NCBI RefSeq assembly: GCF_008364765.1
Contig: NZ_VTUY01000009.1
Location: forward strand, 1-64,000
Origin: Bacillus sp. CH30_1T
GTDB lineage: Bacteria > Bacillota > Bacilli > Bacillales > Bacillaceae_B
DNA: 64,000 bases
Reading direction: 5' to 3'
Both the position numbers and the translations under genes were made by a program. This document shows, piece by piece, positions 3,952 to 18,847 of the stretch; within the stretch, counting starts at the first letter, position 1, and every line of letters begins with the position of its first letter. Below the pieces are notes generated by a model. It ran no database searches. It was not told where the DNA came from and was given only the letters and a program-made list of their open reading frames with translations.

Positions 3952-4059
3952 TTACAATTTTCTTTTAAATCGCTTGTTTTTTTATACATAGTTGTTTTCA
4001 CTTGGCGAATAGCAGGTTCAAATTAGAAAATCTTGAACACTCCCTGCGCTTCTTGAATT

Positions 4060-4110
4060 AAAAAGCAACCCAAAAATGGCTTGGTTCAAACCTCAAGCCA
4101 TTTTTGGGTT
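4060..4110 (-). terminator. strong hairpin terminator of the small minus-strand gene
   Basis: A perfect 17-bp stem (4067-4083 with 4094-4110, core CCAAAAATGGCTTG) and ten-base loop. On the minus strand it is followed by GCTTTTTAA, and it lies seven bases past the stop of the 57-residue gene at 4118-4291. Confidence 0.85.
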
Positions 4111-4117
4111 GAACCAG

Positions 4118-4291
4118 CTATTCATTGATCTGTTGTTGCACCTGTTGGATTTTCTGTTGTGCTTTTTCAAGTTCGCTTTGAGCAAAATGACACGCTTCTG
4201 CTTCAGTACTGTTTGAATTAACTTGCTTTAAATGAAGATGTGCTTTATGGATAATATCTTGGGCTTCTTGTAATTCGCTTTTAAAGTTCAT
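4118..4291 (-). CDS. small Gln-rich coiled-coil protein (57 residues)
   Basis: A minus-strand ATG at 4291, preceded by GAAGGGATGAACGG, opens a 57-residue protein. It is almost entirely helical and rich in Gln, Glu and Lys, ending in KAQQKIQQVQQQINE. A heptad pattern is visible, so a short coiled coil is likely. The Bacillaceae genomes contain many small proteins of this style, some linked to spores, but I do not recognise this one. A strong terminator directly follows it, which supports it being a real one-gene unit. Confidence 0.65.
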   Translation of the reverse strand: MNFKSELQEAQDIIHKAHLHLKQVNSNSTEAEACHFAQSELEKAQQKIQQVQQQINE

Positions 4292-4403
4292 AGCCGTTCA
4301 TCCCTTCATTAACTTTTTCTCCATTATCATGCGCAAGTCTTTAGTGAATTACTCACTTCTTATCATTGGGAGAGGATCATGTATCTCTTTCAGGTGAAAA
4401 TGA

Positions 4404-4452
4404 AAAAGGAGAGAAACTCCTGCCAAATTCAGCAAGAGAATTCTCTCCTTTT
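4404..4452 (-). terminator. hairpin terminator downstream of the IDEAL gene
   Basis: A perfect 12-bp inverted repeat (AAAAGGAGAGAA at 4404-4415 and its complement at 4441-4452) gives T-rich ends on both strands. On the minus strand it follows the IDEAL-domain gene by about 50 bases, and it could work in both directions. Confidence 0.7.
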
Positions 4453-4503
4453 CATTATCCATAAAAACCAATGGCTTATTTATATCTAATCAATCGTTTA
4501 GCG

Positions 4504-4719
4504 TTACATCTTTTCCTCGTGATCTTTACGGATCTGATTTAACTCCTCCGTGAACCGCAGGAATTCTTCTTTGTTTCGATCACGTAATGATTGGTCGATT
4601 TTCTGTTCGAGTTGCTCTTTCCGGAAAGTTAGCAGGGCCTTGTCCAAAATCATTTCTGCAAAAAGAGAGTCTATGCCGGGTACCTCGGACTGTGGTGAAT
4701 TTAGCAAATACTTCTTCAT
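4504..4719 (-). CDS. IDEAL-domain protein
   Basis: A 71-residue soluble protein. Residues 20-62 match the short helical IDEAL domain found in Bacillales proteins such as the YpiB family: a Leu-rich first helix (LFAEMILDKALLTF), the segment KIDQSLRDRNKEEFLRFTEEL, and a charged tail. The domain is named for a sequence motif, and its biochemical role is not settled. The start ATG at 4719 follows CAAGGAGTTG. It is a single gene with its own terminator. A second IDEAL-type protein occurs at 31065-31400. Confidence 0.8.
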   Translation of the reverse strand: MKKYLLNSPQSEVPGIDSLFAEMILDKALLTFRKEQLEQKIDQSLRDRNKEEFLRFTEELNQIRKDHEEKM

Positions 4720-5021
4720 GAAAAATCAACTCCTTGACCTTTTTTATATTATACTAACCATTATCTCAATATTCAAACATTTTAATCGAAAAAAATAAAT
4801 TAATTGAAGGGAAGGAAGTTGGAATCAAGTTTCATTTAAGATTTTGTTAAGTTTGCTTTTCACTATTCAGTTACTAATCCTCGATGTTAAAACCGCCATT
4901 TACTCAGGTTTCGTATCAAAATTAATGAACTTTAAAAAATATTTCCCCGTGGCTTGGAAGTATTTAGCTGATTAGCTTGTTCCATACAAAAAAACTTCAG
5001 ATTTAAAAAGGAAAATATATC

Positions 5022-5040
5022 AAACAATAAAATTGTTTGT
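5022..5040. promoter_or_regulatory. candidate operator palindrome upstream of the B12 riboswitch
   Basis: CAAACAAT-AAA-ATTGTTTG is a perfect 8-3-8 palindrome about 50 bases before the riboswitch. A partial second symmetry exists between ATATCAAA at 5018 and TTTGATAT at 5055. It may bind a regulator of the propionate/valine operon. I cannot name the protein. Nothing else is visible in the roughly 370 bases between the IDEAL gene and the riboswitch. Confidence 0.4.
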
Positions 5041-5055
5041 AATTTTTAGAAATAT

Positions 5056-5084
5056 TTGATATGTTTGATTGGAAAACTGAATAC
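5056..5084 (+). promoter_or_regulatory. candidate sigma-A promoter for the methylcitrate/valine operon
   Basis: TTGATA (5056-5061), a 17-base spacer and GAATAC (5079-5084) lie just before the riboswitch, so transcription would start at its 5' edge. The -10 box is weak, and this is a best guess by position. Confidence 0.35.
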
Positions 5085-5089
5085 GTGTA

Positions 5090-5265
5090 GAAGCAGGTGT
5101 AGAGGGATATGACGATCCTCTACTTAATAGGGAAGTTCGGTTAGAGTCCGACGCTGTCCCGCAACTGTAATTGGGAGCGATTCGAAAAAGCCACTGTCTT
5201 TAGAAATTTGAAGATGGGAAGGTTCGGAGAGTGATGATCATAAGTCAGGAGACCTGCCTGTTTCA
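5090..5265 (+). promoter_or_regulatory. cobalamin (AdoCbl) riboswitch aptamer
   Basis: The expected landmarks appear in order on the plus strand: a 5' P1 strand GCAGGT (5093-5098), GGGAAGTTCGGTTAGAGTCC (5130-5149), CCCGCAACTGTAA (5158-5170), GAGCGA, AGCCACTG (5189-5196), ATGGGAAGG (5214-5222), and the B12 box AAGTCAGGAGACCTGCC (5242-5258), whose ACCTGC closes P1. This class binds adenosylcobalamin or related cobalamins and shuts off expression when B12 is plentiful. A terminator 115 bases downstream indicates transcriptional control of the operon starting at 5452. Confidence 0.93.
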
Positions 5266-5295
5266 GCACACATCAATACCTACGAGGATAGGGGG

Positions 5296-5411
5296 TGTTA
5301 AGTGCGAACGAGTGATCAACATTTTTTGTTTTGGCTTTTTGGGGGAACAGAAAATGTTTATTTAAGCATCAGTTCGATCTTAACAACTTCTTTTTAGAAG
5401 TTGTTTTTTTA
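5296..5411 (+). terminator. riboswitch expression platform: antiterminator and terminator
   Basis: A ten-pair terminator stem (AACAACTTCT 5382-5391 with AGAAGTTGTT 5396-5405) is followed by a T run to 5410. An alternative stem can form between 5296-5309 (TGTTAAG..CGAAC) and 5372-5385 (GTTCG..CTTAACA). It uses the first four bases of the terminator stem, so the two are mutually exclusive. With B12 bound, the terminator should win and the operon should stay off. Confidence 0.75.
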
Positions 5412-5451
5412 TTGTCCATTTTTAAACAAGACGGATTCGAGGTGAACTTCT

Positions 5452-5676
5452 TTGTATGGAACAGTTGAGTATTTTACCGATTACTTCAAAACGTGCATTA
5501 TGAACAACTTCAGTGGAGAAAAGCCACTTATGCTTCCTTCTAATTATCAGCGATTGACAGAAGAAATCATAATGCGGATAGAAAAAAGAGAAGAAAAAGA
5601 AGTTTGTCTGAGTAATCTTGAAAGGGCTTACAACAAAATAAATGATGAGTTATTTGGAGATAGGAGGAAGAGATGA
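5452..5676 (+). CDS. hypothetical 74-residue protein, first gene of the operon
   Basis: A TTG-started frame behind GAGGTGA, located between the riboswitch terminator and mmgD and ending at the base before the mmgD start. The product is soluble and charged, with a helical C-terminal half (EEIIMRIEKREEKEVCLSNL) and one other Cys. I do not recognise a family. Its position suggests it is co-transcribed with, and translationally coupled to, methylcitrate synthase. It could be a regulatory or assembly factor, or only a leader ORF. An alternative 15-codon ATG frame begins at 5455. Confidence 0.5.
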   Translation: MYGTVEYFTDYFKTCIMNNFSGEKPLMLPSNYQRLTEEIIMRIEKREEKEVCLSNLERAYNKINDELFGDRRKR

Positions 5677-6792
5677 TTGGAAGCTAAAGAAAAATTTTTC
5701 CCCGGACTTGATGGTGTTGTTGCAGCAGAAACAAAGATCTCGTTTTTAGATACGATACAAAGTGAAATTGTCATCCAGGGTTATGACCTTATTAAACTAT
5801 CACAATCTAAAGAGTATATGGATATTGTCCATTTACTGCTGGAAGAGAGTTTACCTGATTCTGCAGAGAAAGAAGCTCTGGAAAAGGTGTTGAAAGGTGA
5901 ATATAAGATACCTGGGGAACTGATTGAAATATTCAAACAGCTTCCTGGAAATACACATCCCATGGATGGGCTTAGAACAGGAATTTCAGCTCTTGCAGGA
6001 TATGACAACAAACTCGATGATCGTTCATTACCCGTGAATAAAGGGCGGGCTTATCAACTTCTTGGGATGGTGCCCAACGTTGTGGCGAATAGCTATCGGA
6101 TCATTCAACAAATGGAGCCGATCCGTCCAAACGAAGATCTATCATACAGTGCAAATTTCTTTTACATGATCACTGGGCGAGTCCCTTCTCTACTGGAAGA
6201 AAAGATATTTGACCGCTCTTTAGTCCTTTATAGTGAGCATGAGATGCCGAATTCCACTTTCACGGCAAGGGTGATCGCGTCTACTCATTCTGATTTATAC
6301 GGTGCCTTAACCGGTGCGGTGGCTTCCTTAAAAGGGAACCTGCACGGAGGAGCGAATGAAGCGGTTATGTACATGCTTAATGAAGCAGGCAGTGTGGAAG
6401 CATTTGAAGAGTTGCTCGAAATGAAAATGATGAAAAAAGAAAAGATCATGGGGTTTGGGCATCGCGTGTATATGAAGAAGATGGACCCGAGAGCATTAAT
6501 GATGAAGGAAGCGTTAAAAGAACTATGTGATGTAAAAGGCGACCACCTTTTATATGAAATGTGTGAAGCCGGTGAGAGAGTAATGGAGAGAGAGAAAGGA
6601 ATCTATCCGAATCTTGATTATTATGCAGCTCCGGTCTATTGGATGTTGGGGATACCGATTCCACTATATACTCCAATCTTCTTTAGTGCCAGAACAGTCG
6701 GACTTTGTGCGCATGTTATTGAGCAGCACGCCAATAATCGACTCTTCCGTCCGCGAGTACATTATACAGGCGAGCGACGTGTATTTAATTAA
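5677..6792 (+). CDS. mmgD: 2-methylcitrate synthase / citrate synthase
   Basis: This enzyme condenses propionyl-CoA with oxaloacetate to give 2-methylcitrate, the entry step of the methylcitrate cycle in the cytosol. Its 371 residues match type-II citrate synthases, and the sequence follows Bacillus subtilis MmgD closely throughout. The active-site histidines are visible in LHGGANEAV and FGHRVYMKKMDPRA, and a conserved Asp-bearing block follows in LYPNLDYYAAPVYW. Translation starts at TTG 5677 behind AGGAGGA. The ATG five bases upstream is out of frame. It is the first enzyme gene of the operon. Whether it prefers propionyl-CoA or acetyl-CoA cannot be read from the sequence. Confidence 0.93.
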   Translation: MEAKEKFFPGLDGVVAAETKISFLDTIQSEIVIQGYDLIKLSQSKEYMDIVHLLLEESLPDSAEKEALEKVLKGEYKIPGELIEIFKQLPGNTHPMDGLRTGISALAGYDNKLDDRSLPVNKGRAYQLLGMVPNVVANSYRIIQQMEPIRPNEDLSYSANFFYMITGRVPSLLEEKIFDRSLVLYSEHEMPNSTFTARVIASTHSDLYGALTGAVASLKGNLHGGANEAVMYMLNEAGSVEAFEELLEMKMMKKEKIMGFGHRVYMKKMDPRALMMKEALKELCDVKGDHLLYEMCEAGERVMEREKGIYPNLDYYAAPVYWMLGIPIPLYTPIFFSARTVGLCAHVIEQHANNRLFRPRVHYTGERRVFN

Positions 6793-6894
6793 ACAACTGG
6801 GGAGTTGTAACGTCGCCCACCTGATGAAAATGGATATTTTGGCGAATACCCATTTATATCATAAATAACTTTTAACAGAAAAGGAAGGTATCTC

Positions 6895-8328
6895 ATGCTG
6901 AAAACGAACGAAACGACGAAAACCGATGTGTTATTGGAAGAAATAGCCGATTACGTATTAGATAGAGACATCACAAGTACGGAAGCATATGAAACGGCAC
7001 GCTATGTATTGTTTGATACGCTTGGATGCGGAATTCTCGCTTTGAAATACCCGGAATGTACAAAGCTTCTGGGACCTGTCGTACCCGGGACAATTGTACC
7101 GAATGGGACTAGAGTGCCAGGTACATCGTTCGTCCTTGATCCTGTGAAAGGGGCATTCAACATAGGGTGCATGATCCGCTGGCTGGATTACAATGATACG
7201 TGGCTCGCTGCGGAATGGGGACATCCATCTGACAACCTTGGAGGCATCCTTGCAGTAGCGGATTATGTAAGCCAGGTACGGATTTCGGAAGGGAAAGAAC
7301 CCTTACAAGTTCGGGATGTGCTCGAAATGATGATCAAGGCCCACGAGATTCAGGGAGTACTGGCTTTGGAAAATAGCTTGAATCGTGTAGGTCTCGATCA
7401 TGTTCTATTTGTGAAAATCGCAACGACAGCTGTTGTAACGAAGATGTTGGGTGGATCTCGTCAGGAAATCATTAATGCGTTATCGAATGCATGGATTGAC
7501 AATTCAAGCTTGCGAACATATCGACATGCACCCAATACAGGCTCGCGAAAATCCTGGGCAGCAGGAGACGCAACAAGCAGGGGCGTTCACTTGGCAATGA
7601 TGGCTGTAAAAGGCGAGATGGGCTATCCAACCGGACTTTCAGCACCTGGATGGGGATTCCAGGATATACTCTTCAATAAAAAAGAATTGGTACTGGGCCG
7701 TCCACTTGAATCGTATGTAATGGAAAATATACTGTTCAAAGTATCTTATCCGGCAGAATTTCATGCCCAGACAGCAGCCGAGTGTGCGGTAAAGCTCCAC
7801 CCATCAGTGATTAACCGACTTGACGAAATCGATGAAATCAGGATCATGACCCATGAATCAGCTATACGCATCATTGATAAAACAGGTCCTCTCCATAATC
7901 CGGCGGATCGCGATCATTGTTTGCAGTACATCACAGCCATCGGATTGCTTAAAGGCGATATCAAAGCGGAAGATTATGAAAATGAAACAGCCCTGGATCC
8001 AAGAATTGATTCCTTGCGTGAAAAGATGACCGTGGTAGAAAACAAACAATACAGTGAAGATTACCTTGATCCGAGCAAGCGCTCAATCGCAAACAGTGTA
8101 CAAATTCGTTTCACAGATGGATCCGTTACCGAAAATGTAGAATTAGAGTTTCCATTAGGACACCGATTCAGAAGAGACGAAGCGATTCCAAAGATTAAGG
8201 AAAAATTCATGAACAATATCAAGACCCACTATTCAAGCAAACAACAGAAATTGATTGAAGAAGCCTGCTATGACAGGGACACATTAGAAAACATGAAAGT
8301 GAATGAATTTGTAGATTTGTTCATCTAG
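6895..8328 (+). CDS. mmgE: 2-methylcitrate dehydratase (MmgE/PrpD)
   Basis: This iron-sulfur-independent dehydratase removes water from 2-methylcitrate to form 2-methyl-cis-aconitate. Its 477 residues fit the MmgE/PrpD family. Recognisable segments are FDTLGCGI near the N-terminus, [20 protein letters not shown], the Gly-rich loop around [18 protein letters not shown], and the C-terminal lid with KYPAEFH-type [23 protein letters not shown] 6895 follows AAAGGAAGG. About 100 bases separate it from mmgD. That gap holds a short ACAACT/AGTTGT hairpin without a T run. Rehydration to methylisocitrate would need an aconitase encoded elsewhere. Confidence 0.93.
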
Positions 8329-8346
8329 AAAAGGAGGATGACCAAG

Positions 8347-9261
8347 ATGGCATGGATTGTAGACCAACCGTTAGCACAAACAGAGCTTGCCGACCAATTT
8401 CAAAAAAGTATGTCCAGTGAATCCATTTTGCAAATACCTGGCGCTCATGATGCGATGGCTGCCCTCATTGCAAAGGAGGCGGGTTTCTCAGCGCTTTATT
8501 TATCGGGAGCCGCTTATACAGCAAGCAGGGGACTCCCGGATCTTGGGATGCTGACGTCAACTGAAGTTGCAGAACGCGCCAAAGACCTTGTTCGTGCTAC
8601 TAATTTGCCGGTATTAGTCGATATCGATACGGGATTCGGAGGATATCTGAACGTAGCACGTACGGCTAGAGAAATGGTGGAGGCCCATGTAGCTGCGGTT
8701 CAATTGGAAGATCAGCAATTGCCTAAAAAGTGCGGACATCTAAATGGGAAACAACTCGTATCTCCGGAAGAGATGGTTCAGAAGATCAGGGTGATCAAAG
8801 AGGTGGCTCCTTCATTAATTGTCGTAGCGCGTACGGATGCCCGCAGCAGCGAAGGACTGGAAGGTGCGATAGAAAGAGCGGCTATGTATGTAGAAGCAGG
8901 TGCCGACGCAATCTTCCCTGAAGCCCTTGAATCTGAAGAAGAGTTTCGACTGTTCCGAAACCGAATCCGAGTTCCACTTCTTGCTAACATGACAGAGTTC
9001 GGGAAGACCCCTTACCATACTGCTGAAGAGTTTCAGGACATGGGTTTTCAGATGGTCATTTACCCTGTGACTTCATTGCGGGTGGCGGCGAAGGCATATG
9101 AACGGATCTTCCAGCTAATCAAAAAGGAAGGCACTCAAAGAGAAGGAATCCAGGACATGCAGACTAGAAGCGAGTTATATGACACCATTTCCTATTATGA
9201 CTTTGAAAATCTGGATAATGAAATTGCAAAGACTCTCCTAACCGATGAACATAAATCGTAA
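8347..9261 (+). CDS. mmgF: 2-methylisocitrate lyase
   Basis: This enzyme cleaves 2-methylisocitrate into pyruvate and succinate, the last step of the methylcitrate cycle. It belongs to the isocitrate lyase/PEP mutase superfamily, is 304 residues long, and matches B. subtilis MmgF (YqiQ). Diagnostic motifs are the substrate loop PKKCGHLNGK with its catalytic Cys, the metal-binding DIDTGFG, and VARTDAR. I place the start at ATG 8347, nine bases after AAGGAGG. The ATG at 8338 touches the Shine-Dalgarno sequence and is unlikely. It is separated from mmgE by 18 bases. Confidence 0.93.
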   Translation: MAWIVDQPLAQTELADQFQKSMSSESILQIPGAHDAMAALIAKEAGFSALYLSGAAYTASRGLPDLGMLTSTEVAERAKDLVRATNLPVLVDIDTGFGGYLNVARTAREMVEAHVAAVQLEDQQLPKKCGHLNGKQLVSPEEMVQKIRVIKEVAPSLIVVARTDARSSEGLEGAIERAAMYVEAGADAIFPEALESEEEFRLFRNRIRVPLLANMTEFGKTPYHTAEEFQDMGFQMVIYPVTSLRVAAKAYERIFQLIKKEGTQREGIQDMQTRSELYDTISYYDFENLDNEIAKTLLTDEHKS

Positions 9262-9366
9262 AGCACAAATGGTAAAAGGGAATCGTGATTCGCATCAATT
9301 GTAGGATGTAATCGATTCAACGCTTTTGGTAAATAGGTATAACAAGTCAAAGCGAGGAGGAAAGGG

Positions 9367-11082
9367 ATGGGCGAAGCAGAACTTCAAGCTAGTGAACGTT
9401 TATTTACTCATCATGGAGAGGAAGATGAAGTATTTACTCCGGAAGATTTTAATGAGGAAGGTCATCTCATATCGAAAACAACAGAACGATTCGTCAAAAA
9501 CGATGTAATTCCCTTGCTTGATTCGATTGATCATCATGATTATGCCAACGTTAAAAAATTGTTTAAAGGAGCAGGGGAGCTCGGCTTGCTCAGTATTGAG
9601 GTTCCAGAATCGTATGGTGGCCTGTCACTGAACAAAAAACTTTCAGGCCTTGTAGCAGAGAAGATGGGATTTGGCGGTTCGTTCAGCGTATCCTTTAATA
9701 TTCATGCAGGTGTAGGTACACTTCCATACGTATATTATGGAACAGAGAAGCAAAAACATATGTACCTGCCAAAGCTCATATCGGGAGAATGGATTGGAGC
9801 CTATGCTTTAACGGAACCTGACGCAGGATCGGATGCACTAAAGGCTAAAACGACTGCAGTGTTGAACGAAGAAGGGACATCCTGGCTGTTAAATGGTGAA
9901 AAACAGTGGATAACCAACGCACAAGTGGCGGATGTCTATGTCGTCTTTGCCAAAACCGGTGACGGCATGACTGCCTTCATTGTAGAGAGGTCTTTCAATG
10001 GGGTTTCAGTTGGCCCAGAAGAGAAGAAGATGGGGATAAAAGGATCTTCGACCGCCACTTTAATCTTGGAAGATGTCAATGTGCCGTCACAGAATGTCCT
10101 GGGAAAAGTTGGGCAGGGACATCATGTAGCGTTAAACATTTTAAACATGGCGCGGTTGAAGCTCGCCTTCTCGAACATCGGTACATCGAAGCAGGCACTG
10201 AAGCTTGCAGTGGGCTACGCGAATCAGCGTAAGCAATTTGGTAGACCAATCATCCGTTTTTCCATGATACAAGAAAAGATTGCGGATATGGCGATTTCGA
10301 TTTATGGGGCGGAGAGTGCCGCATACAGGACGGCTGACAGCTTAGACCAAGTGTTGGACTCCGCCGCCCCCTTAGATGATCGATTGAGAGAACTCGCACA
10401 CTACGCAACAGAATGTGCAATCAATAAAGTAAACTGCTCCGAAGTCCTTGACGGGATTGTAGATGAGGCCGTACAGATTCATGGTGGGTATGGATACATG
10501 CAGGAATATGAGGTGGAAAGACTTTATCGGGATGCACGGATAAGCCGGATTTTCGAAGGAACCAATGAAATAAACCGACTGACGATTGCTAAGCTTTTGA
10601 TCAAAAAAGCATACCAATCTGCCGATTCAAGGAAGGAACACCTAATCCATAAGCATATAAACCGAAATCAGGAATACATCCACTTGTCTAAAATGCTTCT
10701 CGACAAATCTTTGAGAGCACTTACACATTTCCACATTAACATCCAGCAGGAACAAGAATATTCCCGCTTGCTCGCCAACATGATGAAAGAAATCTATGTG
10801 ATGGAATCTGCGTTCATTCGCACAGAAAAAGCCATACAAAAGAACGGGATAGACAAAGAGCTATTGAAAACGAACATGACGAACATCATCTGTGAAGAGG
10901 GTTATCGAAGAATGGAAGAGATGACAGTCTTGATCTTATCGGGAACAGAAGCAGATGAAGCCCGCAGAAAAGGGATATTGGATGAAATCAAAAGTCTTCC
11001 TGTTCCCCTTTACAGGAATCTGTTTATTCAAAAGCGGGAAATCGCAGAACGCGTGTCTGAACATGAAAAATATATCGTGTGA
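9367..11082 (+). CDS. acyl-CoA dehydrogenase, probable isobutyryl-CoA dehydrogenase
   Basis: A 571-residue FAD-dependent acyl-CoA dehydrogenase that passes electrons to an electron-transfer flavoprotein. The first ~400 residues form the ACAD core: YALTEPDAGSDALKAKT and KQWITNA for flavin and substrate contacts, and ARISRIFEGTNEINR carrying the likely catalytic Glu. About 170 extra C-terminal residues resemble the helical extension of long ACADs such as FadE. In this operon its expected job is oxidation of isobutyryl-CoA (from valine) to methacrylyl-CoA. That is inferred from context, and a fatty-acyl substrate remains possible. ATG 9367 follows GAGGAGGAAAGGG. The 105 bases upstream show no terminator. 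Confidence 0.88.
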   Translation: MGEAELQASERLFTHHGEEDEVFTPEDFNEEGHLISKTTERFVKNDVIPLLDSIDHHDYANVKKLFKGAGELGLLSIEVPESYGGLSLNKKLSGLVAEKMGFGGSFSVSFNIHAGVGTLPYVYYGTEKQKHMYLPKLISGEWIGAYALTEPDAGSDALKAKTTAVLNEEGTSWLLNGEKQWITNAQVADVYVVFAKTGDGMTAFIVERSFNGVSVGPEEKKMGIKGSSTATLILEDVNVPSQNVLGKVGQGHHVALNILNMARLKLAFSNIGTSKQALKLAVGYANQRKQFGRPIIRFSMIQEKIADMAISIYGAESAAYRTADSLDQVLDSAAPLDDRLRELAHYATECAINKVNCSEVLDGIVDEAVQIHGGYGYMQEYEVERLYRDARISRIFEGTNEINRLTIAKLLIKKAYQSADSRKEHLIHKHINRNQEYIHLSKMLLDKSLRALTHFHINIQQEQEYSRLLANMMKEIYVMESAFIRTEKAIQKNGIDKELLKTNMTNIICEEGYRRMEEMTVLILSGTEADEARRKGILDEIKSLPVPLYRNLFIQKREIAERVSEHEKYIV

Positions 11083-11097
11083 ACGGAGTGAAGTCTT

Positions 11098-11985
11098 GTG
11101 AAAAAGATCGGATTTATCGGTTTGGGCAATATGGGTCTACCTATGTCGCAAAATTTGCTTCTGTCTAACTTTACAGTGTATGGAATGGATCTGAATAAAG
11201 AAGCTGAGTTGTCCTTTCTTAAATCGGGAGGTACGGTCGGCGTATCGCTTGATGAGATGGTTGAACGATGTGATGTAATCCTGACAAGCCTTCCATCGAC
11301 AAACGCAGTGGAGGAGATTTTCTTGGGGGAAAAAGGACTCGTTAACATCTCGGGTCCAAGTGTTATGCTCATCGATACGAGTACGGTAGCTCCAGAACTG
11401 AATAGCCGGATAGAAGAGGCGGCTAAGAAAAAGGATGTGGAATTTCTGGCGGCACCAGTCAGCGGGGGTGTAGTAGGGGCAGTAAATCGAACACTCACTT
11501 TCATGGTCGGTGGTGTAAGGTCTGCCTTCGATAAGGCACTGCCTGTATTCAACGCGATGGGTGAGAATATATTTCATGTGAGTGAAAAGATCGACAGCGG
11601 TACAAATACGAAGCTCATCAATAATCTACTGATCGGATTTTATACAGCGGGTGTAAGTGAAGCCCTCCATCTTGCTAAGAATAGTGATCTTGATCTTGAA
11701 AAATTGTTCGAGATGCTCAACGTCAGTTATGGACAGAGCAGAATCTACGAGCGCAATTATAAAAGTTTCATAGCTGATGATACTTATGAGCCCGGTTTTT
11801 CTTTAAAGCTGCTGAGGAAGGATCTCGGGTTTGCTCTTGGACTTGCCGAAAAAAACAACGTGGAACTGCCGGTCAGCAAAATCCTCTTCGACCTATATGA
11901 AGAAGCCGAAAAGAACGGTTGCGGTGAAAAAGACATGTCCATCCTATACAAAAAAATTAGTGAAAAGACGACGACCATTTTATAA
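11098..11985 (+). CDS. mmsB: 3-hydroxyisobutyrate dehydrogenase
   Basis: This enzyme oxidises 3-hydroxyisobutyrate to methylmalonate semialdehyde with NAD+ in valine breakdown. It is 295 residues long and of the HIBADH family. The Rossmann motif IGFIGLGNMGLPMSQNL is at the N-terminus. The substrate-binding signature APVSGGVVGA follows near residue 120, and the catalytic Lys sits in TKLINNLLIGF near 175. It starts with GTG 11098 behind GGAGTGAAG, 15 bases after the dehydrogenase stop. The same family includes tartronate semialdehyde reductases, but the neighbouring mmsA makes the valine role much more likely. Confidence 0.9.
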   Translation: MKKIGFIGLGNMGLPMSQNLLLSNFTVYGMDLNKEAELSFLKSGGTVGVSLDEMVERCDVILTSLPSTNAVEEIFLGEKGLVNISGPSVMLIDTSTVAPELNSRIEEAAKKKDVEFLAAPVSGGVVGAVNRTLTFMVGGVRSAFDKALPVFNAMGENIFHVSEKIDSGTNTKLINNLLIGFYTAGVSEALHLAKNSDLDLEKLFEMLNVSYGQSRIYERNYKSFIADDTYEPGFSLKLLRKDLGFALGLAEKNNVELPVSKILFDLYEEAEKNGCGEKDMSILYKKISEKTTTIL

Positions 11986-12001
11986 GAAGGGGTGAGAATA
12001 G

Positions 12002-13456
12002 ATGATTACAACAAATATTAAAAAAATGCAGAACAACATCAACGGAGAATGGGTAGATTCTACCGGAACGGATGTTGAAGAAGTAATCAATCCTGCGAAT
12101 GGAAAAATCATTGCCTATGTACCTCTATCGACGAGAACGGATGTCGATCACGCCGTACAGGCCGCTCAAAAGACGTATGAGACTTGGACATTAGTCCCTG
12201 TGCCGAACCGGACAAGACTATTATACAATTACTTAAGGGTTCTTCAAGAACAGAAAGAACAATTGGCTGAAATCATCACGATGGAAAATGGAAAAACGCT
12301 AAAGGATGCTCGTGGAGAGGTTCAGCGAGGGATAGAAGTCGTTGAGCTTGCGACTGCGACACCAACTCTAATGATGGGAGAGTCACTACCTGGGATTGCG
12401 GATGGAATTGATGGTTCGATTTGGCGTTATCCATTAGGAGTCGTTGCAGGAATTACACCTTTTAACTTTCCGATGATGGTACCACTTTGGATGTTCCCAC
12501 TTGCGATTTCCTGTGGAAATACGTTTGTTCTGAAGGCATCAGAAAAAACTCCGATCCTAGCAGGTAAACTTGTAGAGCTGTTCTATGAATCAGGTTTCCC
12601 TAAAGGTGTCCTTAACCTCGTACACGGAGCAAAAGACGTGGTGAACGGTTTACTGGAGAACGAAGACATCAAAGCCATTTCTTTCGTTGGTTCCGAACCT
12701 GTGGCAAAGCATGTTTACCAAACGGGTACAGCTAACGGAAAACGTGTCCAGGCACTTGCCGGTGCAAAAAACCATGCTGTAGTCCTATCGGATTGCCAGC
12801 TTGAGAAGTCGGTTCAAGGCATTATCGGTGCCGCGTTCGGCAGCAGTGGAGAACGCTGTATGGCGTGCTCAGTCGTTGCAGTCGTAGATGAGATCGCTGA
12901 TGAGTTTATGGAAATGCTCGTTTCTGAAACACGCAAGCTGAAAACAGGAGACGGCAGGTCAGAAGATAACTTTGTAGGTCCCTTGATCCGGGAAGTTCAC
13001 AAAAACCGTGTGCTCCATTATATTGACACCGGGGTAAGAGAAGGGGCTTCATTACGAGTGGACGGACGGGATCCTGAAGTAGGGGAAGGATACTATGTCG
13101 GGGCGACCATTTTCGACCATGTGAAACCGGATATGAAAATATGGCAGGAGGAACTCTTCGCGCCAGTATTGAGTGTCGTACGAGTAAAAGACCTTGATGA
13201 AGGAATCAAACTCACCAATCAATCCAATTTTGCCAATGGAGCTGTTATCTATACGTCGAGCGGCAAAAGTGTCCAGAAGTTTCGCGATAAAATTGATGCC
13301 GGCATGATCGGTGTGAATGTCAATGTGCCAGCTCCAATGGCATTCTTCTCATTCGCCGGAAACAAAGCATCATTTTATGGAGACCTTGGAACAAATGGAA
13401 AAGACGGTGTCCAATTTTACACACGGAAGAAAGTAGTAACAGAACGCTGGTTCTAA
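12002..13456 (+). CDS. mmsA: methylmalonate-semialdehyde dehydrogenase (CoA-acylating)
   Basis: This enzyme converts methylmalonate semialdehyde, NAD+ and CoA to propionyl-CoA, CO2 and NADH, linking valine breakdown to the methylcitrate cycle encoded upstream. It is a 484-residue aldehyde dehydrogenase of the MMSDH group. [16 protein letters not shown] is typical of the group, [12 protein letters not shown] follows, and the catalytic Cys lies in [15 protein letters not shown] 12002 follows AAGGGGTGAGAAT, 16 bases after mmsB. The same family contains the IolA enzymes of inositol breakdown, but no inositol genes are present here. Confidence 0.92.
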
Positions 13457-13468
13457 ACCTGACTGTAG

Positions 13469-13515
13469 GATCCCTCTATTTGTAGGATATAGGCATTTAG
13501 AGGGATCTATTTATC
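13469..13515 (+). promoter_or_regulatory. intra-operon hairpin between mmsA and the enoyl-CoA hydratase
   Basis: GATCCCTCTA (13469-13478) pairs perfectly with TAGAGGGATC (13498-13507) around a 19-base loop. A weak TATTTATCTT tract follows. It may be a leaky terminator or an mRNA-stabilising end that lowers or separates expression of the last two genes. Confidence 0.5.
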
Positions 13516-13544
13516 TTGAAATCTTTCAACTGGAGGGAAAAATC

Positions 13545-14330
13545 TTGAGTTACACATACGCGACGATTAGAAAAGAAAATGATATCACAATGGTTACATT
13601 GAACAATCCGCCGGCGAATACATTATCTTCTTCCTGTATCACCGAATTGCGTTCCCTTTTCCAGGAACTGGTCAGGGATGATGAAACAAAAGCCATCATC
13701 CTTACAGGGGAGGGCCGTTTCTTCGTTGCGGGAGCAGACATTAAAGAATTCGTATCTAAATTAGGGGATCAGGAACAGGGGTTGGAACTGGCGAAAAATG
13801 GTCAGGCTCTTTGCGATGAAATCGAAGGTCTTCAGAAACCTGTCATTGCCGCGATAAATGGGCCATCTCTTGGGGGAGGCCTAGAGTTGGCGATGAGCTG
13901 TCATTTCAGAATCATGTCAGATCATGCTACGGTTGGTCTTCCTGAATTAAAGCTTGGGCTGATTCCGACTTTCGGCGGCACACAACGGCTTCGCAAGATA
14001 ACAGATACAGCAACCACACTGGATATCATCCTTACAGGGAGGACCCTCTCTGCAAGAGAAGCCGTAGATCTTGGGATAGCTCAGTTAGCTGTAAAAGAAA
14101 GTGAATTGTTACAGACGGCAAGAGCAATTGCAACTTCGTTTGTGGAAGGGAAAAGCATGACCAGTGTGATGCGGGCAGTGGAGTGTATTGTACAGGGCAG
14201 TAACGTAAGTATGGAACAAGGATTAGAAAAGGAACGTAGAAGATTTGCTGAGTTGTTCCTGACAGAGGATGCGAAAGAAGGGATTCACGCATTCATCGAA
14301 AAACGCAAACCAGACTTCACACATTCATAA
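13545..14330 (+). CDS. enoyl-CoA hydratase, probable methacrylyl-CoA hydratase
   Basis: A 261-residue crotonase-fold protein expected to hydrate methacrylyl-CoA to 3-hydroxyisobutyryl-CoA in this pathway. The oxyanion-hole regions are present as GRFFVAGADIKEF (CoA binding) and NGPSLGGGLELAMSCHFR, and the catalytic Glu region is GLPELKLGLIPTFGGTQRL. The start is TTG 13545, ten bases after CTGGAGGG. It is followed after 14 bases by another crotonase-fold gene. The exact acyl-CoA preference is inferred from neighbours. Confidence 0.88.
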   Translation: MSYTYATIRKENDITMVTLNNPPANTLSSSCITELRSLFQELVRDDETKAIILTGEGRFFVAGADIKEFVSKLGDQEQGLELAKNGQALCDEIEGLQKPVIAAINGPSLGGGLELAMSCHFRIMSDHATVGLPELKLGLIPTFGGTQRLRKITDTATTLDIILTGRTLSAREAVDLGIAQLAVKESELLQTARAIATSFVEGKSMTSVMRAVECIVQGSNVSMEQGLEKERRRFAELFLTEDAKEGIHAFIEKRKPDFTHS

Positions 14331-14344
14331 AAGGAGGAGATAGA

Positions 14345-15415
14345 ATGTCCGACGAAGTATTGTTTTCCGTTAACCCAAATGGTGTTGCTACGATTTTACT
14401 TAATCGCCCGAAAGCACTCAATTCTCTATCTCATGAGATGGTCATCGCTATCGGTGAAAAATTAAGAGAATGGAAGAGAGACAATAGTGTATCAATCGTC
14501 GTCATGAAAGGTGCGGGTTCAAAAGCGCTATGTGCAGGCGGTGATATTAAATCACTCTATGAAGCGCGTTTGTCTGAATCCGCACGGCGAAAAGCAGAGA
14601 ATTTTTTTGCTGAAGAATATGAGGTCGATATGGCCGTGTATCAATTTCCGAAGCCAATCATTGCCTGTTTAGACGGAGTCGTAATGGGTGGGGGCGTTGG
14701 TCTAACATATGGGGCTAGTCATCGCATTGTAACGGAGCGGACAAAATGGTCGATGCCCGAGATGAATATCGGTTTCTTTCCGGATGTTGGCGCAGCTTAC
14801 TTCTTAAATAAAGCTCCCGGGCACGCAGGTCGTTATCTCGCTTTAACGGCCTCAGTCATACAGGCTCAGGATGTTCTATATGTAAACGGTGCAGACATTT
14901 ATATGGAAAGTGAGGCATTAGAACGTTTTATTGAAAAAGTGGATAATACGGATTGGCGTCATGTGAAGGTGGAGGATATTCTTGATCAACTGATTGATGA
15001 ATACAAAACATATTCATCTAATGAAAGAAAGATTGCCCCTATTCAAAGTGAAATCGATCGGCATTTCGCGTTTGAGACAGTTGAAGAAATTCTTCAATCC
15101 CTCGACAGTCAGACAAGCGATTTTAACTTGAATGTGAAGAAATTGCTCCTTTCAAAGTCCCCTTTTTCATTGAAGATCACGTTAAAACAAATGATTGACG
15201 GCAAACAAAAGACAATGAAAGATTGCTTTGCAACCGATCTTCTTCTAGCCAAGAACTTCTTAAAACACGGAGACTTTTATGAAGGCGTTCGGTCTGTCCT
15301 CATTGATCGGGACCAGTCACCGAATTATGAGTACAAACATATTTCAGACGTTACGAACGATGTGGTGGATTCATTTTTCAAACCGATTTCTCCTGTTTCA
15401 AAAGTTGATAATTGA
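14345..15415 (+). CDS. 3-hydroxyisobutyryl-CoA hydrolase
   Basis: This enzyme releases CoA from 3-hydroxyisobutyryl-CoA to give the free acid used by MmsB. It is 356 residues, the usual length of HIBCH enzymes, and longer than hydratases because of its C-terminal extension. Signatures are ALCAGGDIKSLYEA, GVVMGGGVGLTYGASHRI and WSMPEMNIGFFPDVGAAYFL. The last of these carries the Glu and Asp characteristic of the hydrolases rather than the hydratase pair. ATG 14345 follows AAAAGGAGGAGAT. It is the last gene of the operon. The strong terminator at 15553 probably ends the transcript. Confidence 0.92.
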   Translation: MSDEVLFSVNPNGVATILLNRPKALNSLSHEMVIAIGEKLREWKRDNSVSIVVMKGAGSKALCAGGDIKSLYEARLSESARRKAENFFAEEYEVDMAVYQFPKPIIACLDGVVMGGGVGLTYGASHRIVTERTKWSMPEMNIGFFPDVGAAYFLNKAPGHAGRYLALTASVIQAQDVLYVNGADIYMESEALERFIEKVDNTDWRHVKVEDILDQLIDEYKTYSSNERKIAPIQSEIDRHFAFETVEEILQSLDSQTSDFNLNVKKLLLSKSPFSLKITLKQMIDGKQKTMKDCFATDLLLAKNFLKHGDFYEGVRSVLIDRDQSPNYEYKHISDVTNDVVDSFFKPISPVSKVDN

Positions 15416-15552
15416 TTTAATTCTAGTCATTGAGTAGTTAAAAGAGATGCTTAATTTACTGAGGGACTACCCGCTTGGAATTGAAAACGACAAAGTCTAT
15501 GGGTGAGGGGTCTGTCTGACTGCAATAAAAGTGAAAATGTAGACGGAATCTG

Positions 15553-15589
15553 CCTTCCCCTCACTATGTAGAGGGGAAGGTTTCTTTTT
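15553..15589 (+). terminator. intrinsic terminator ending the valine/methylcitrate operon
   Basis: CCTTCCCCTC (15553-15562) pairs perfectly with GAGGGGAAGG (15571-15580), followed by TTTCTTTTT. The 135 bases between the hydrolase stop and this hairpin contain no other feature I can support. Confidence 0.85.
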
Positions 15590-15674
15590 GATGCTAGCTA
15601 GAAGACCCCCTGATAGAAAACAAGATATGAGGGTAGCCCCTTTTTCCTAATTATGCTTATTGGATAAAATCCGA

Positions 15675-15703
15675 TTGACAGAAACTAAAAAAAGTCATAG
15701 CAT
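15675..15703 (+). promoter_or_regulatory. candidate sigma-A promoter of the cnt operon
   Basis: TTGACA (15675-15680), 17 bases, then TAGCAT (15698-15703) put the start of transcription near 15710, directly at the first Zur box. The -35 box is perfect and the -10 box is moderate. Confidence 0.65.
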
Positions 15704-15712
15704 AATAAAGGT

Positions 15713-15733
15713 AAATCGTAATTATTACGCTTT
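15713..15733. promoter_or_regulatory. Zur box 1
   Basis: AAATCGTAAT-TATTACGCTTT closely matches the Bacillus Zur operator (AAATCGTAATnATTACGATTT) with only the distal right arm off. It overlaps the predicted transcription start, so zinc-loaded Zur would block the cnt operon. Confidence 0.85.
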
Positions 15734-15763
15734 AATGCCGTTCCTTATATTTTTTTACATAAT

Positions 15764-15784
15764 AAATCGTAATGGTTACGAATT
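15764..15784. promoter_or_regulatory. Zur box 2
   Basis: A second copy, AAATCGTAAT-GGTTACGAATT, is centred 51 bases downstream of the first and about 55 bases before cntK. Two boxes spaced close to five helical turns suggest cooperative repression. Confidence 0.8.
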
Positions 15785-15838
15785 AATGATTTATCCTTTC
15801 AGTATCTCATTACCAAAAGAAGCAGAGGGGTCGAAATA

Positions 15839-16684
15839 ATGCAGGAGATCGAGTTTATCAAATTCAACCCGACGGAGAATATGACGGTACTTGTAAAGAC
15901 CAAACACCTCAAAGAAGAATATCATCAGATTGCGTCAAGGCTTATGGCATATGACAGTTTATATGCTGAACAGGTGGGGTTCATTGAAGAGTCAAAGAAT
16001 ACGGGTGCGGATACCAGACTGCAGATGGCCGGGGGAGAATTCTGTGGGAATGCCTGCATGTCGTTGGCTGCCTTCATTGCTTCGGGAAATGCGCTGCCCC
16101 TCGGTTGTTCGACCACCATCCTGATGGAGGTCTCGGGCACCGACGAGTTAGTCCGGTGTGATGTGAAGAATGATATGGGCTTGTACCGTTGCAGCATGAC
16201 AATGCCTATTCCCGCTAGGATCAAGAAACAAATGTGGGTGGTGGATGGAAAAGAACTTCCCGTCACGATGATCCATTATCAGGAGGCGGTTCACGCTGTA
16301 TGGGAAGCGGGACAAGTGGACCCTTCATTGCGCCGGTCGGCGGAAACACTTGCGCGAATGATCAAGTCGTCCTATGAAGGGAATCTGGTCGGTGTTTTGC
16401 TCTATGATCCCCAAACCCACGAACTTGCCCCCCTCATCCATGTACCGGATGTAAACAGCATGATGTGGGAACGGGGGTGCGGATCAGGGACCGGATCATT
16501 GGGTGCTTATCTTGCATGGAAGCAGAAACGCTGCATCTCGTTGCAGGTCAAACAGCCAGGAGGGGAAATGCATGTAACCGCAGATTGGGATGAAGGGTCC
16601 ATAACAGCGGTCAGGATTGAGGGGACCGTCGGGATTGTAGCAGAAGGGAAAGCATTTATACACATGATTGAGGAGGTTATATGA
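15839..16684 (+). CDS. cntK: histidine racemase of opine metallophore synthesis (CntK-like)
   Basis: A 281-residue protein of the diaminopimelate-epimerase fold. Its predicted job is to turn L-histidine into D-histidine, the first building block of staphylopine-type metallophores. The two catalytic cysteines sit in GGEFCGNACM (Cys69) and ERGCGSGTGS (Cys214), the same two contexts as in Staphylococcus aureus CntK. A DapF enzyme is the main alternative, but the next two genes (nicotianamine-synthase-like and opine dehydrogenase) fix the role. ATG 15839 follows AGAGGGGTCG and is the first gene after the two Zur boxes. Its stop overlaps the cntL start by four bases. Confidence 0.9.
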   Translation: MQEIEFIKFNPTENMTVLVKTKHLKEEYHQIASRLMAYDSLYAEQVGFIEESKNTGADTRLQMAGGEFCGNACMSLAAFIASGNALPLGCSTTILMEVSGTDELVRCDVKNDMGLYRCSMTMPIPARIKKQMWVVDGKELPVTMIHYQEAVHAVWEAGQVDPSLRRSAETLARMIKSSYEGNLVGVLLYDPQTHELAPLIHVPDVNSMMWERGCGSGTGSLGAYLAWKQKRCISLQVKQPGGEMHVTADWDEGSITAVRIEGTVGIVAEGKAFIHMIEEVI

Positions 16685-17487
16685 TGAAGGCGAGCAAGAC
16701 CTTTGAAGAAGATCTGCGCATCTATTTGGAACGATTTGATGAAGCCATTCAAAGAAATAGCCTTATGGAAGAGGAGGCTGTGGCGTTAGAGGAATTAATC
16801 AACGAGTATTCACGATTCATTCTTAATGAAGAGTACATAAAGAGGTGGGATCAGTTAGCGGATCCACACCTGGTAGATCAGTTAAGAAATCTATCCGCCT
16901 TATCCGTGGCCAAGATGGAGAAGTATCGGGCCCGGAAGCTATTGAGGGGAGATGGAGTGATAGCAGATTACTTTCAAAACATCGAGTCCTGCATTGAAGA
17001 GGAGTTCGGGCAGTTTCAGGTGACACGGGAATCGACTGTACTCCTTGTCGGCTCAGGTTCTTTTCCGATGACACCGCTCCTTATTGCGGGGCGCACATGC
17101 TCGAAGGTAATCGGGATCGACATTGACGAAGAGGCGGTCACCATGGGACGGCAGGTTGTTGATCGGTTAGGCAAGGGTTTGAACATCACGCTGGAATTTT
17201 CGTTAGTAGAACAGCTCAGAGATCTCAAGGAAGTGTCGCATATCATCTTCAGTTCGACGGTTGAAGCGAAATATGACATCCTGGATCAGCTATATGAGCT
17301 GACCAATGAAGAGGTAGTTGTGTCGATGAGGTACGGTGATGGTCTGAAATCCCTCTTCAATTTCCCTTCCCGTGAAGTAGATAAGAAGAAGTGGAGAATA
17401 GCAGAAAATAGTCTGCGTCCCCAGCAAATATTTGATATCTTAATCTATGAAAAAAATCGTCCCGCTAAAAGTCAGGAGGGTAATTGA
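16681..17487 (+). CDS. cntL: nicotianamine synthase-like enzyme (CntL-like)
   Basis: Expected to transfer an aminobutyrate group from S-adenosylmethionine onto D-histidine, giving the xNA intermediate. It is 268 residues long. The SAM-binding core is TVLLVGSGSFPMTPLLIAG followed by IGIDIDEEAVTMG, which matches the bacterial CntL/NAS fold rather than ordinary methyltransferases. A helical N-terminal domain of about 100 residues precedes it. It is tightly coupled: ATG 16681 overlaps the cntK stop, and a second ATG directly follows at 16684, either of which could be used behind GAGGAGG. The 3' end overlaps the region where cntM begins. Confidence 0.9.
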   Translation: MMKASKTFEEDLRIYLERFDEAIQRNSLMEEEAVALEELINEYSRFILNEEYIKRWDQLADPHLVDQLRNLSALSVAKMEKYRARKLLRGDGVIADYFQNIESCIEEEFGQFQVTRESTVLLVGSGSFPMTPLLIAGRTCSKVIGIDIDEEAVTMGRQVVDRLGKGLNITLEFSLVEQLRDLKEVSHIIFSSTVEAKYDILDQLYELTNEEVVVSMRYGDGLKSLFNFPSREVDKKKWRIAENSLRPQQIFDILIYEKNRPAKSQEGN

Positions 17488-18803: not shown

Positions 18804-18847
18804 TGATTTTGTTTTATAGAGAGAGTACAAAAGGAGAGAAAAATGGG

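Follow-up and report, generated by a model that had tools for sequence, protein, structure and literature searches.

A cobalamin riboswitch ahead of methylcitrate cycle and valine degradation genes in Bacillus sp. CH30_1T and the possible joint replacement of two B12-dependent routes

In a 64,000-nt stretch of DNA from Bacillus sp. CH30_1T (hereafter the window), we detected a cobalamin riboswitch and an intrinsic terminator upstream of eight genes assigned to the methylcitrate cycle and to valine degradation. It is probable that an adenosylcobalamin-type OFF riboswitch gates this whole unit, which would serve as a B12-free replacement of two B12-dependent routes. The aptamer, the terminator, a recurrent antiterminator pairing, the gene content, the presence of both mutases and the co-occurrence across genomes were computed, and from the sequence we infer B12 control of operon expression. 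The features, in window coordinates, are:

5037..5065, + strand, putative promoter TTGTAA-17 nt-TATGTT, in a conserved place relative to the aptamer
5078..5275, + strand, cobalamin riboswitch aptamer RF00174, 113.2 bits, full-length model
5279..5309, + strand, P13-like hairpin (CCTACG..ATAGG), just 3' of the aptamer core
5290-5309, + strand, predicted antiterminator 5' arm, overlapping the 3' side of the P13-like hairpin
5372..5391, + strand, predicted antiterminator 3' arm, running into the 5' arm of the terminator
5382..5405, + strand, intrinsic terminator AACAACTTCT(TTTT)AGAAGTTGTT plus T run, from a hairpin scan, with a counterpart in 17/17 leaders
5452..5676, + strand, small leader ORF of 74 aa, TTG start, YvfG-like three-helix, between terminator and mmgD
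5619..5632, + strand, cre-like (CcpA) site TGAAAGGGCTTACA, within the small ORF, one mismatch from consensus
5677..6792, + strand, mmgD, citrate-synthase family, NF009004 'citrate synthase', 707.5 bits (cut-off 508)
6895..8328, + strand, prpD, 2-methylcitrate dehydratase, TIGR02330, 873.6 (cut-off 458)
8338..9261, + strand, prpB, methylisocitrate lyase, TIGR02317, 429.8 (cut-off 354.4)
9367..11082, + strand, acyl-CoA dehydrogenase (acd), NF058590 'FadE', 677.7, above cut-off
11098..11985, + strand, mmsB-like 3-hydroxyisobutyrate dehydrogenase, 2-hydroxy-3-oxopropionate reductase 213.3, HIBADH 206.1
12002..13456, + strand, mmsA, CoA-acylating methylmalonate-semialdehyde dehydrogenase, TIGR01722, 588.6, above cut-off
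13545..14330, + strand, enoyl-CoA hydratase, best model 292.7 (cut-off 313)
14345..15415, + strand, 3-hydroxyisobutyryl-CoA hydrolase (hibch), NF004127, 432.9, above cut-off
15552..15581, + strand, terminator-like hairpin closing the unit, 11 pairs, 7 of them GC, T-rich tail

The RF00174 covariance-model match (model positions 1-189 of 189, E 1.4e-27, gathering score 31.5 bits) was the sole Rfam match above cut-off in the window, and its score and E-value exclude a chance hit. A preliminary description of this DNA had placed a B12 riboswitch with its terminator ahead of the operon and had proposed this covariance-model check. Both elements are confirmed, but the leader start given there, 5090, is 12 nt late. 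The aptamer appears to be of the adenosylcobalamin type, with ligand binding and response predicted. The promoter hexamers on their own were rejected as evidence, as they score no better than shuffles, and only their conserved place counts: TTGnnn-17-TAnnnT occurs 41-44 nt 5' of the aptamer in 15 of the 17 riboswitch leaders.

The terminator is the only terminator-like site within 4900-5700, where shuffles expect 0.3. At this locus the predicted antiterminator arms form 17 pairs (z -4.7). A predicted antiterminator competing with the terminator was found in 17/17 leaders (16-19 pairs, mean dG -18.4, z -2.2 to -5.0), the arms for this test having been picked after the pairing had been seen. These include Anoxybacillus rupiensis (L101), whose terminator sequence differs and was entered as a motif of its own, yet the antiterminator arm pairs with it (dG -25.7), and G191, whose terminator was absent from the hairpin-scan list and was located by its motif. 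Nascent-RNA folds adopted the antiterminator pairing in 12/12 survey leaders. When the 4-bp core of the hairpin at 5279..5309, which we take to be P13, was forced, the nascent RNA kept most of this pairing in 12/12 at a cost of 0-2.9 kcal/mol, and full-length folds formed the terminator in 12/12 with or without forced P13; these folds omit the loop-loop contact, by which P13 is held in known class-I aptamers.

An aptamer, a terminator and a competing antiterminator make up the layout of a B12-OFF attenuator, with a predicted effect of the ligand on read-through. In the presence of B12, the P13 hairpin after the core would keep AGGGGGTGTTAAG off the 5' arm of the terminator, and transcription would stop near 5410. 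In its absence, the AGGGGGTGTTAAG segment would pair with that arm and polymerase would continue into the operon. The transcription-terminating riboswitch would thereby gate the leader ORF, three methylcitrate cycle genes and five distal valine genes.

The preliminary description also listed methylcitrate genes and then five valine enzymes 3' of the riboswitch, and eight genes of this kind indeed occupy 5677-15415, all on the + strand, several of them named by context. Successive gaps from mmgD to the hydrolase gene are 102, 9, 105, 15, 16, 88 and 14 nt. The mmgD product scored 394.3 against the 2-methylcitrate/citrate synthase II model (cut-off 421.3); by context and recall, we take the 5677-6792 gene to be mmgD, encoding the 2-methylcitrate synthase of the methylcitrate cycle. 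A protein search gave one prpD match in the genome, and thus the only methylcitrate cycle seen stands behind the riboswitch. Among the five valine genes, the dehydrogenase (FadE model), MmsA and the hydrolase exceeded their cut-offs, and MmsB and the hydratase did not. The MmsB-like protein, with both best models under cut-off, was named by context; by context too, the hydratase would be methacrylyl-CoA hydratase and the likely substrate of the 9367-11082 dehydrogenase is isobutyryl-CoA. Terminator-like sites lie inside the unit at 10997-11018, 11812-11828 and 13325-13343, and such sites are at chance level over 4000-16000 (12 found, 10.3 expected). The region from the riboswitch to the last gene is predicted to be a single transcript.

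Both B12-dependent counterparts are encoded elsewhere in the genome. The check for mutAB/mcm suggested earlier returned the methylmalonyl-CoA mutase pair MutA/MutB together with MeaB. IcmF, a fused isobutyryl-CoA mutase/GTPase, was also found (NF045497, 2013.9 bits, cut-off 1500), and its gene neighbors encode a thiolase, 3-hydroxybutyryl-CoA dehydrogenase and two acyl-CoA dehydrogenases, i.e., a butyryl-CoA oxidation cluster. Aligned to an IcmF reference chain, presumably that of C. metallidurans, it keeps the IcmF-type substrate residues (Phe598 and Gln742 in what we take to be the reference numbering, with an assumed 20-residue tag offset). Because IcmF lies in such a cluster, isobutyryl-CoA also has a B12 route. 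The valine steps, which had been thought to be needed by both routes, are therefore not necessarily common to them, and IcmF may be used in valine breakdown. It is likely that the valine genes sit in the putatively B12-controlled operon as a replacement for the IcmF route. The operon would then replace two B12 routes together, namely the IcmF route, from isobutyryl-CoA to butyryl-CoA followed by beta-oxidation, and the methylmalonyl-CoA mutase route, from propionyl-CoA to succinyl-CoA.

A second, B12-independent valine set, which the preliminary description had proposed to look for, was not seen around the two closest mmsA paralogs (58%): one lies in an iol operon and the other beside an aminotransferase, which rules out a set at these places; more distant paralogs are at 30-33%. 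Nine further mmsA paralogs of relatives had no mmsB, ech or hibch neighbors in the stretches fetched, one of which (L190) ends at the contig end. A single weak acyl-CoA dehydrogenase match (26%) was observed in another stretch (L189). The genome of Bacillus sp. CH30_1T also has metE- and nrdAB-type cobalamin riboswitch targets.

The survey of relatives envisaged earlier recovered the same leader in 17 genomes in all. A riboswitch was located 388-455 nt upstream of mmgD in 12 of the 54 MmgD-bearing genomes of the order, and at mmgD in 5 of 9 named loci scanned (L096-L098, L100-L104 and L106, among at least 80 loci listed; L099 was taken as the same locus as G181, and L105, a Bacteroidia MAG at 54%, and L107-L175, at 49% or less, were outside the scan). 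In the order survey it was present in 12/15 genomes with IcmF and another mutase, 0/9 with IcmF only and 0/30 with neither. Over all 63 genomes with MmgD, which are not independent of one another, it occurred in 17/21 with IcmF plus another methylmalonyl-CoA-type mutase and in 0/42 others, the mutase calls outside this genome being based on Pfam match and frame length alone. G200, G414, G356 and Lentibacillus halodurans have both mutase classes and mmgD yet no riboswitch. Culturable carriers of the riboswitch include Psychrobacillus soli and Cytobacillus horneckiae. In the 54-genome scan, filters were stricter and no more than 37 candidates per genome were scored, such that misses are possible; a separate scan of 29 of these loci (1.5 kb each side, normal filters) agreed, with 7 positives and 22 negatives. 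G337 was counted as lacking the riboswitch; a cobalamin riboswitch does lie on the same strand 9 kb ahead of its mmgD gene. The contrast also holds within family f23, where G360 has the riboswitch and both mutases, whereas G301 has IcmF only and no riboswitch, and G191 and G216 show the same pattern in family f36. MmsA at 80-100% identity was found in 5/24 mutase-bearing genomes, always inside the riboswitch cluster. Control confined to this genus was rejected, since the leader recurs in other families. The switch logic put forward earlier, with the methylcitrate route taking over from the mutase when B12 is lacking, fits both the genome (mutases with MeaB, one prpD) and the 63-genome pattern, and the regulation itself is predicted.

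The stop codon of the small leader ORF abuts the called mmgD start. This conserved 74-aa ORF, below the 90-aa lower limit of the ORF listing of the window, and the cre-like site were absent from the preliminary description. With the consensus that we assume for cre, matches with at most one mismatch lie within 120 nt 5' of mmgD in 14/17 leaders (0.08 expected), and over the whole window they are at chance (6 found vs 4.88 expected). Pfam and NCBIfam gave nothing near any cut-off for the ORF. Fold and sequence-profile comparisons agreed on YvfG as its best match, with an E-value of only 0.0043 and a small helical fold; YvfG of Bacillus subtilis (PDB 2gsv, 2js1, 9a4s) is the nearest known protein. 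Divergence by codon position among the first 8 of 12 ORF members was 0.45 at the third position vs 0.37 and 0.33, a weak coding signature, and the ORF was not seen by eye in three-frame translations of eight loci. As 9a4s is a ferredoxin-YvfG model, the leader protein might be an electron-transfer partner. A broader reading, which we offer tentatively, is that the riboswitch selects between two complete branched-chain carbon routes (with B12, IcmF to acetyl-CoA; without B12, methacrylyl-CoA, propionyl-CoA and methylcitrate), frees a YvfG-like protein, possibly an electron-transfer partner or regulator of the B12-free route, and is combined with catabolite repression acting on this same leader.

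It is also conceivable, albeit rather unlikely, that the riboswitch governs just the leader ORF and mmgD-prpD-prpB, and that the valine genes are joined by order and have their own promoter, e.g., in the 105-nt prpB-acd gap. Only prp genes follow in 8/17 riboswitch clusters, G074 has a sigma-54-type activator gene between prpB and acd, and passages of PMC12891235 report an internal promoter before prpD in the B. thuringiensis prp genes. However, in our window the genes share one strand with short gaps, the prpB-acd gap has no terminator-like site, a stronger one follows the last gene, and promoter-like matches number 25 against 24.1 expected by chance. In addition, three or more valine genes are retained further downstream, in the same orientation, in 9/17 clusters. 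The clusters of G246 and G218 may extend further, as their contigs stop 5 kb after prpB and just after mmsA, respectively.

A possible, though doubtful, explanation is that the valine genes are present simply as a source of propionyl-CoA for the methylcitrate cycle, with IcmF irrelevant. G293, in which neither a mutase match nor a riboswitch at that locus was found, has mmgD-prpD-prpB-mmsB-mmsA, and thus a valine neighborhood can exist without B12 control. Moreover, since the eight prp-only clusters also have IcmF, this enzyme does not separate prp-only from valine layouts. On the other hand, stopping valine breakdown under B12 would be unexplained unless another route existed, and the IcmF cluster supplies one. 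Finally, MmgD (E at most 1e-120) occurs in 1/36 genomes of the genus, so the operon may be acquired; on this view, its leader could have been copied from a different B12 operon and be decayed or without function. The full aptamer score, the aptamer-antiterminator-terminator order in 17 genomes and the promoter-like pair in the same place in 15 make such a non-functional leader highly improbable. Gating of the whole unit, as a replacement of both B12 routes, is the reading we prefer.

If true, this would mean that B12 riboswitches can govern an entire catabolic pathway and not just individual substitute enzymes, and sequence would predict in which bacteria the fate of carbon from valine and propionate changes with the available B12. 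The operon offers a direct test of the purpose of IcmF in these Bacillales and points to an unannotated, putatively B12-controlled small protein. We found no report in the open PMC literature of a methylcitrate/valine operon as a cobalamin riboswitch target, and this target is not treated in the available portion of PMC2667541. In Mycobacterium tuberculosis, as is predicted here, B12 lowers methylcitrate cycle enzymes, PrpD and PrpC protein being absent with B12 according to parts of PMC10924821. That system differs, however, in that prpDC has a transcription factor, PrpR (named in the same parts), and the two B12 riboswitches lie upstream of metE and PPE2 (excerpts of PMC4428469). Bacillus thuringiensis shares the operon genes, with prpC, prpD and prpB in one operon and a potential CcpA site, but, unlike here, no methylmalonyl-CoA mutase gene was found by the authors (sections of PMC12891235); the word riboswitch is absent from that paper. 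A further parallel is formed by the riboswitches of metE (tandem SAM and cobalamin; the metE/metH case is described in part of PMC9600662) and nrdAB, in which RF00174 represses a B12-free enzyme when the B12-dependent one is usable. Their target is one isozyme, whereas the target proposed here comprises eight enzymes, which form a two-part catabolic pathway and have two B12-dependent counterparts.

Cobalamin riboswitch control of methylcitrate-cycle and valine genes had been proposed in the preliminary description, and both the riboswitch and its terminator were confirmed ahead of these genes:

5078-5275, + strand, cobalamin riboswitch (RF00174), full-length family match, 113.2 bits
5382-5405, + strand, intrinsic terminator, downstream of the aptamer and before the gene set
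15552-15581, + strand, terminator-like hairpin closing the gene set (hairpin scan)

The terminator is followed, all on the + strand, by a citrate-synthase family gene (mmgD), prpD, prpB, an acyl-CoA dehydrogenase gene (acd), an mmsB-like gene, mmsA, an enoyl-CoA hydratase gene (ech) and a 3-hydroxyisobutyryl-CoA hydrolase gene, with intergenic gaps of 9-105 nt. Three of these names come from gene context because the specific family models score below cut-off: MmgD (as methylcitrate synthase), MmsB and the hydratase. Promoter-like (25 versus 24.1 expected) and terminator-like (12 versus 10.3 expected) matches within 4000-16000 were at chance level. By eye, a hairpin without a T run (GATCCCTCTA/TAGAGGGATC) was seen in the mmsA-ech gap (13469-13507); it could serve transcript stabilisation, processing or attenuation. 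Directly 3' of the operon lies a metallophore-type cluster (15839-20440) with CntK-like (230.6 bits, below the cut-off of 300) and CntL-like (306.8 bits, below the cut-off of 350) genes and a staphylopine dehydrogenase gene, followed by an ORF resembling a solute-binding lipoprotein.

MmgD was detected in 54 of the 397 genomes that were taken from the order (E <= 1e-120). At the same threshold, the window's genome was the only one among 36 of the genus to have it, and the operon therefore looks acquired, or else widely lost in the genus. The leader recurred in relatives: in 12 of the 54 genomes, RF00174 was found on the same strand 388-455 nt 5' of where the MmgD match begins, and a repeat scan of 29 of the 54 loci returned the same 7 positives. 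An IcmF-length frame together with a separate mutase was present in 15 of these genomes, an IcmF-length frame only in 9 and no mutase in 30; the riboswitch preceded mmgD in 12/15, 0/9 and 0/30 of them, respectively. Among named genomes, for which 9 of at least 80 loci were scanned, the leader was found in Psychrobacillus soli, Cytobacillus horneckiae, Bacillus sp. HF117_J1_D, Anoxybacillus rupiensis and Lysinibacillus cavernae, all five with both mutase classes. It was not found at the loci of Chengkuizengella marina and Paenibacillus sp. V4I3 (both IcmF only), of an uncultured Marinococcus (no mutase), or of Lentibacillus halodurans, though the latter has both classes. Combined, 17 of 21 genomes with both mutase classes have the riboswitch versus 0 of 42 others (Fisher p 5.9e-12, kinship ignored); the four exceptions are L. 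halodurans and the surveyed genomes G200, G414 and G356.

The 17 leaders share their anatomy. A promoter-like TTGnnn-17-TAnnnT lies 41-44 nt 5' of the aptamer in 15, and a terminator is present in all 17. The segment directly 3' of P13 pairs with the 5' arm of the terminator in 17/17 (16-19 pairs; z -2.2 to -5.0 against dinucleotide shuffles, with the arms chosen after the pairing had been seen). In the Anoxybacillus leader, the terminator sequence is different and the pairing is kept, which supports the predicted antiterminator. When a 4-bp P13 core was forced, the folded nascent RNA still kept most of the antiterminator, and full-length folds formed the terminator in 12/12 cases with P13 forced or not. 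Since folds with and without forced P13 give no simple switch, the choice between the two structures would be expected to be kinetic and to depend on a ligand-held contact outside these folds.

The genome contains six cobalamin riboswitches, including that of the operon. The other five, by contig (C), precede the following genes:

C22, class I ribonucleotide reductase genes
C27, a periplasmic-binding-protein gene with ABC ATPase and cobU/cobS genes
C28, metE (with a tandem SAM riboswitch)
C28, cobalamin adenosyltransferase and a second binding protein
C2, riboswitch at 68910-69101, a 163-aa 4HBT thioesterase (fetched locus L010:4911-5744)

A GCATCT..AGATGC hairpin with a T run was also seen by eye 5' of the thioesterase gene, whose product might release CoA when acyl-CoAs accumulate without B12. 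The mutAB genes, whose presence was to be checked, exist as a MutA/MutB pair, and MeaB is present too; a frame of 1163 aa that includes a B12-binding domain has the length of MetH, and a single copy of prpD was found. IcmF is also encoded (2013.9 bits versus a cut-off of 1500). On the same strand, genes for acetyl-CoA acetyltransferase, 3-hydroxybutyryl-CoA dehydrogenase and two acyl-CoA dehydrogenases precede it, with a 217-aa ORF in between. In an alignment to the solved IcmF (4xc6) that assumes a 20-residue tag offset, Phe 598 and Gln 742, which we take to be the isobutyryl-CoA residues, are both kept.

IcmF bears on the earlier puzzle of why valine steps, taken as needed by both routes, should stand under B12 control: they need not be shared, as IcmF offers a B12-dependent route for isobutyryl-CoA. 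With B12, IcmF would convert isobutyryl-CoA to butyryl-CoA, which the adjoining enzymes, with an enoyl-CoA hydratase also required, would take to acetyl-CoA. Without B12, isobutyryl-CoA would pass via methacrylyl-CoA to propionyl-CoA and on into the methylcitrate cycle. We infer from gene content that the operon is a second, B12-free route for isobutyryl-CoA and propionyl-CoA. The check for another B12-independent valine gene set extended to the two closest mmsA paralogues (58%), one in an iol operon and one in an aminotransferase neighbourhood, and none lies beside them.

Valine genes downstream of the riboswitch at 17 loci (G, surveyed genomes; L, fetched loci)
All five: window's genome, G360, G106, L106 (Bacillus sp. 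HF117_J1_D)
Four, no hydratase: L096
acd, hydratase and hydrolase: G228, L100 (L. cavernae)
acd-mmsB-mmsA: G074, G218
prp genes only, within the stretches fetched: G246, G116, G391, G041, G191, G333, L097, L101 (A. rupiensis)

At least three valine genes follow in 9/17 clusters and the rest have prp genes only, as far as the fetched stretches reach; thus, riboswitch control of the prp genes looks like the core, with valine genes gained or lost in some lineages. MmsA of at least 80% was found in 5 of 24 mutase-bearing genomes, always inside the riboswitch cluster. The G218 contig ends after acd-mmsB-mmsA, and G074 has the other two valine genes on the opposite strand and a sigma-54-type activator gene between prpB and acd (L064:8782-10149). 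The 21-kb L106 locus has no prpD or prpB match; there (L106:10001-17505), riboswitch, a small leader ORF and mmgD are directly followed by the valine genes. Additional riboswitches were seen nearby: four cobalamin riboswitches in a 21-kb stretch of L. cavernae (L100:5945-19071), one before a metE-type gene and one before mmgD; a second one with metE directly 3' of the last valine gene in G228 (L059:5505-8149); and opposite-strand SAM and cobalamin riboswitches back to back with that of mmgD in G360 (L029:1-1108).

In 14/17 leaders, a cre-like site that departs from the consensus at one position at most lies within 120 nt 5' of mmgD (0.08 expected); matches over the whole window were at chance level. 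The site overlaps conserved codons of the small ORF in 9/14, and coding constraint may explain those nine. In the other five (G391, G041, G333, L100, L096), it lies outside the small ORF or there is no such ORF. This pattern suggests carbon source as a putative second regulatory input.

Searches of the open PMC literature found no description of a methylcitrate or valine operon under a cobalamin riboswitch; the main text of a large riboswitch regulon survey (PMC3766115) contains no propion, prpC or mmgD, and its supplement may list such a case. In other systems, M. tuberculosis loses PrpD and PrpC protein with B12, with PrpR given as the transcription factor for both (PMC10924821); C. amycolatum riboswitches control cobalt transport and methionine synthesis (PMC11071462); and X. 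ruminicola propionate genes have no nearby riboswitches (PMC11575231). A conserved and very probably functional B12 riboswitch stands ahead of a B12-free pathway. Control of B12-independent substitutes is a known kind of riboswitch use; the target here and its two-mutase logic appear to be new.
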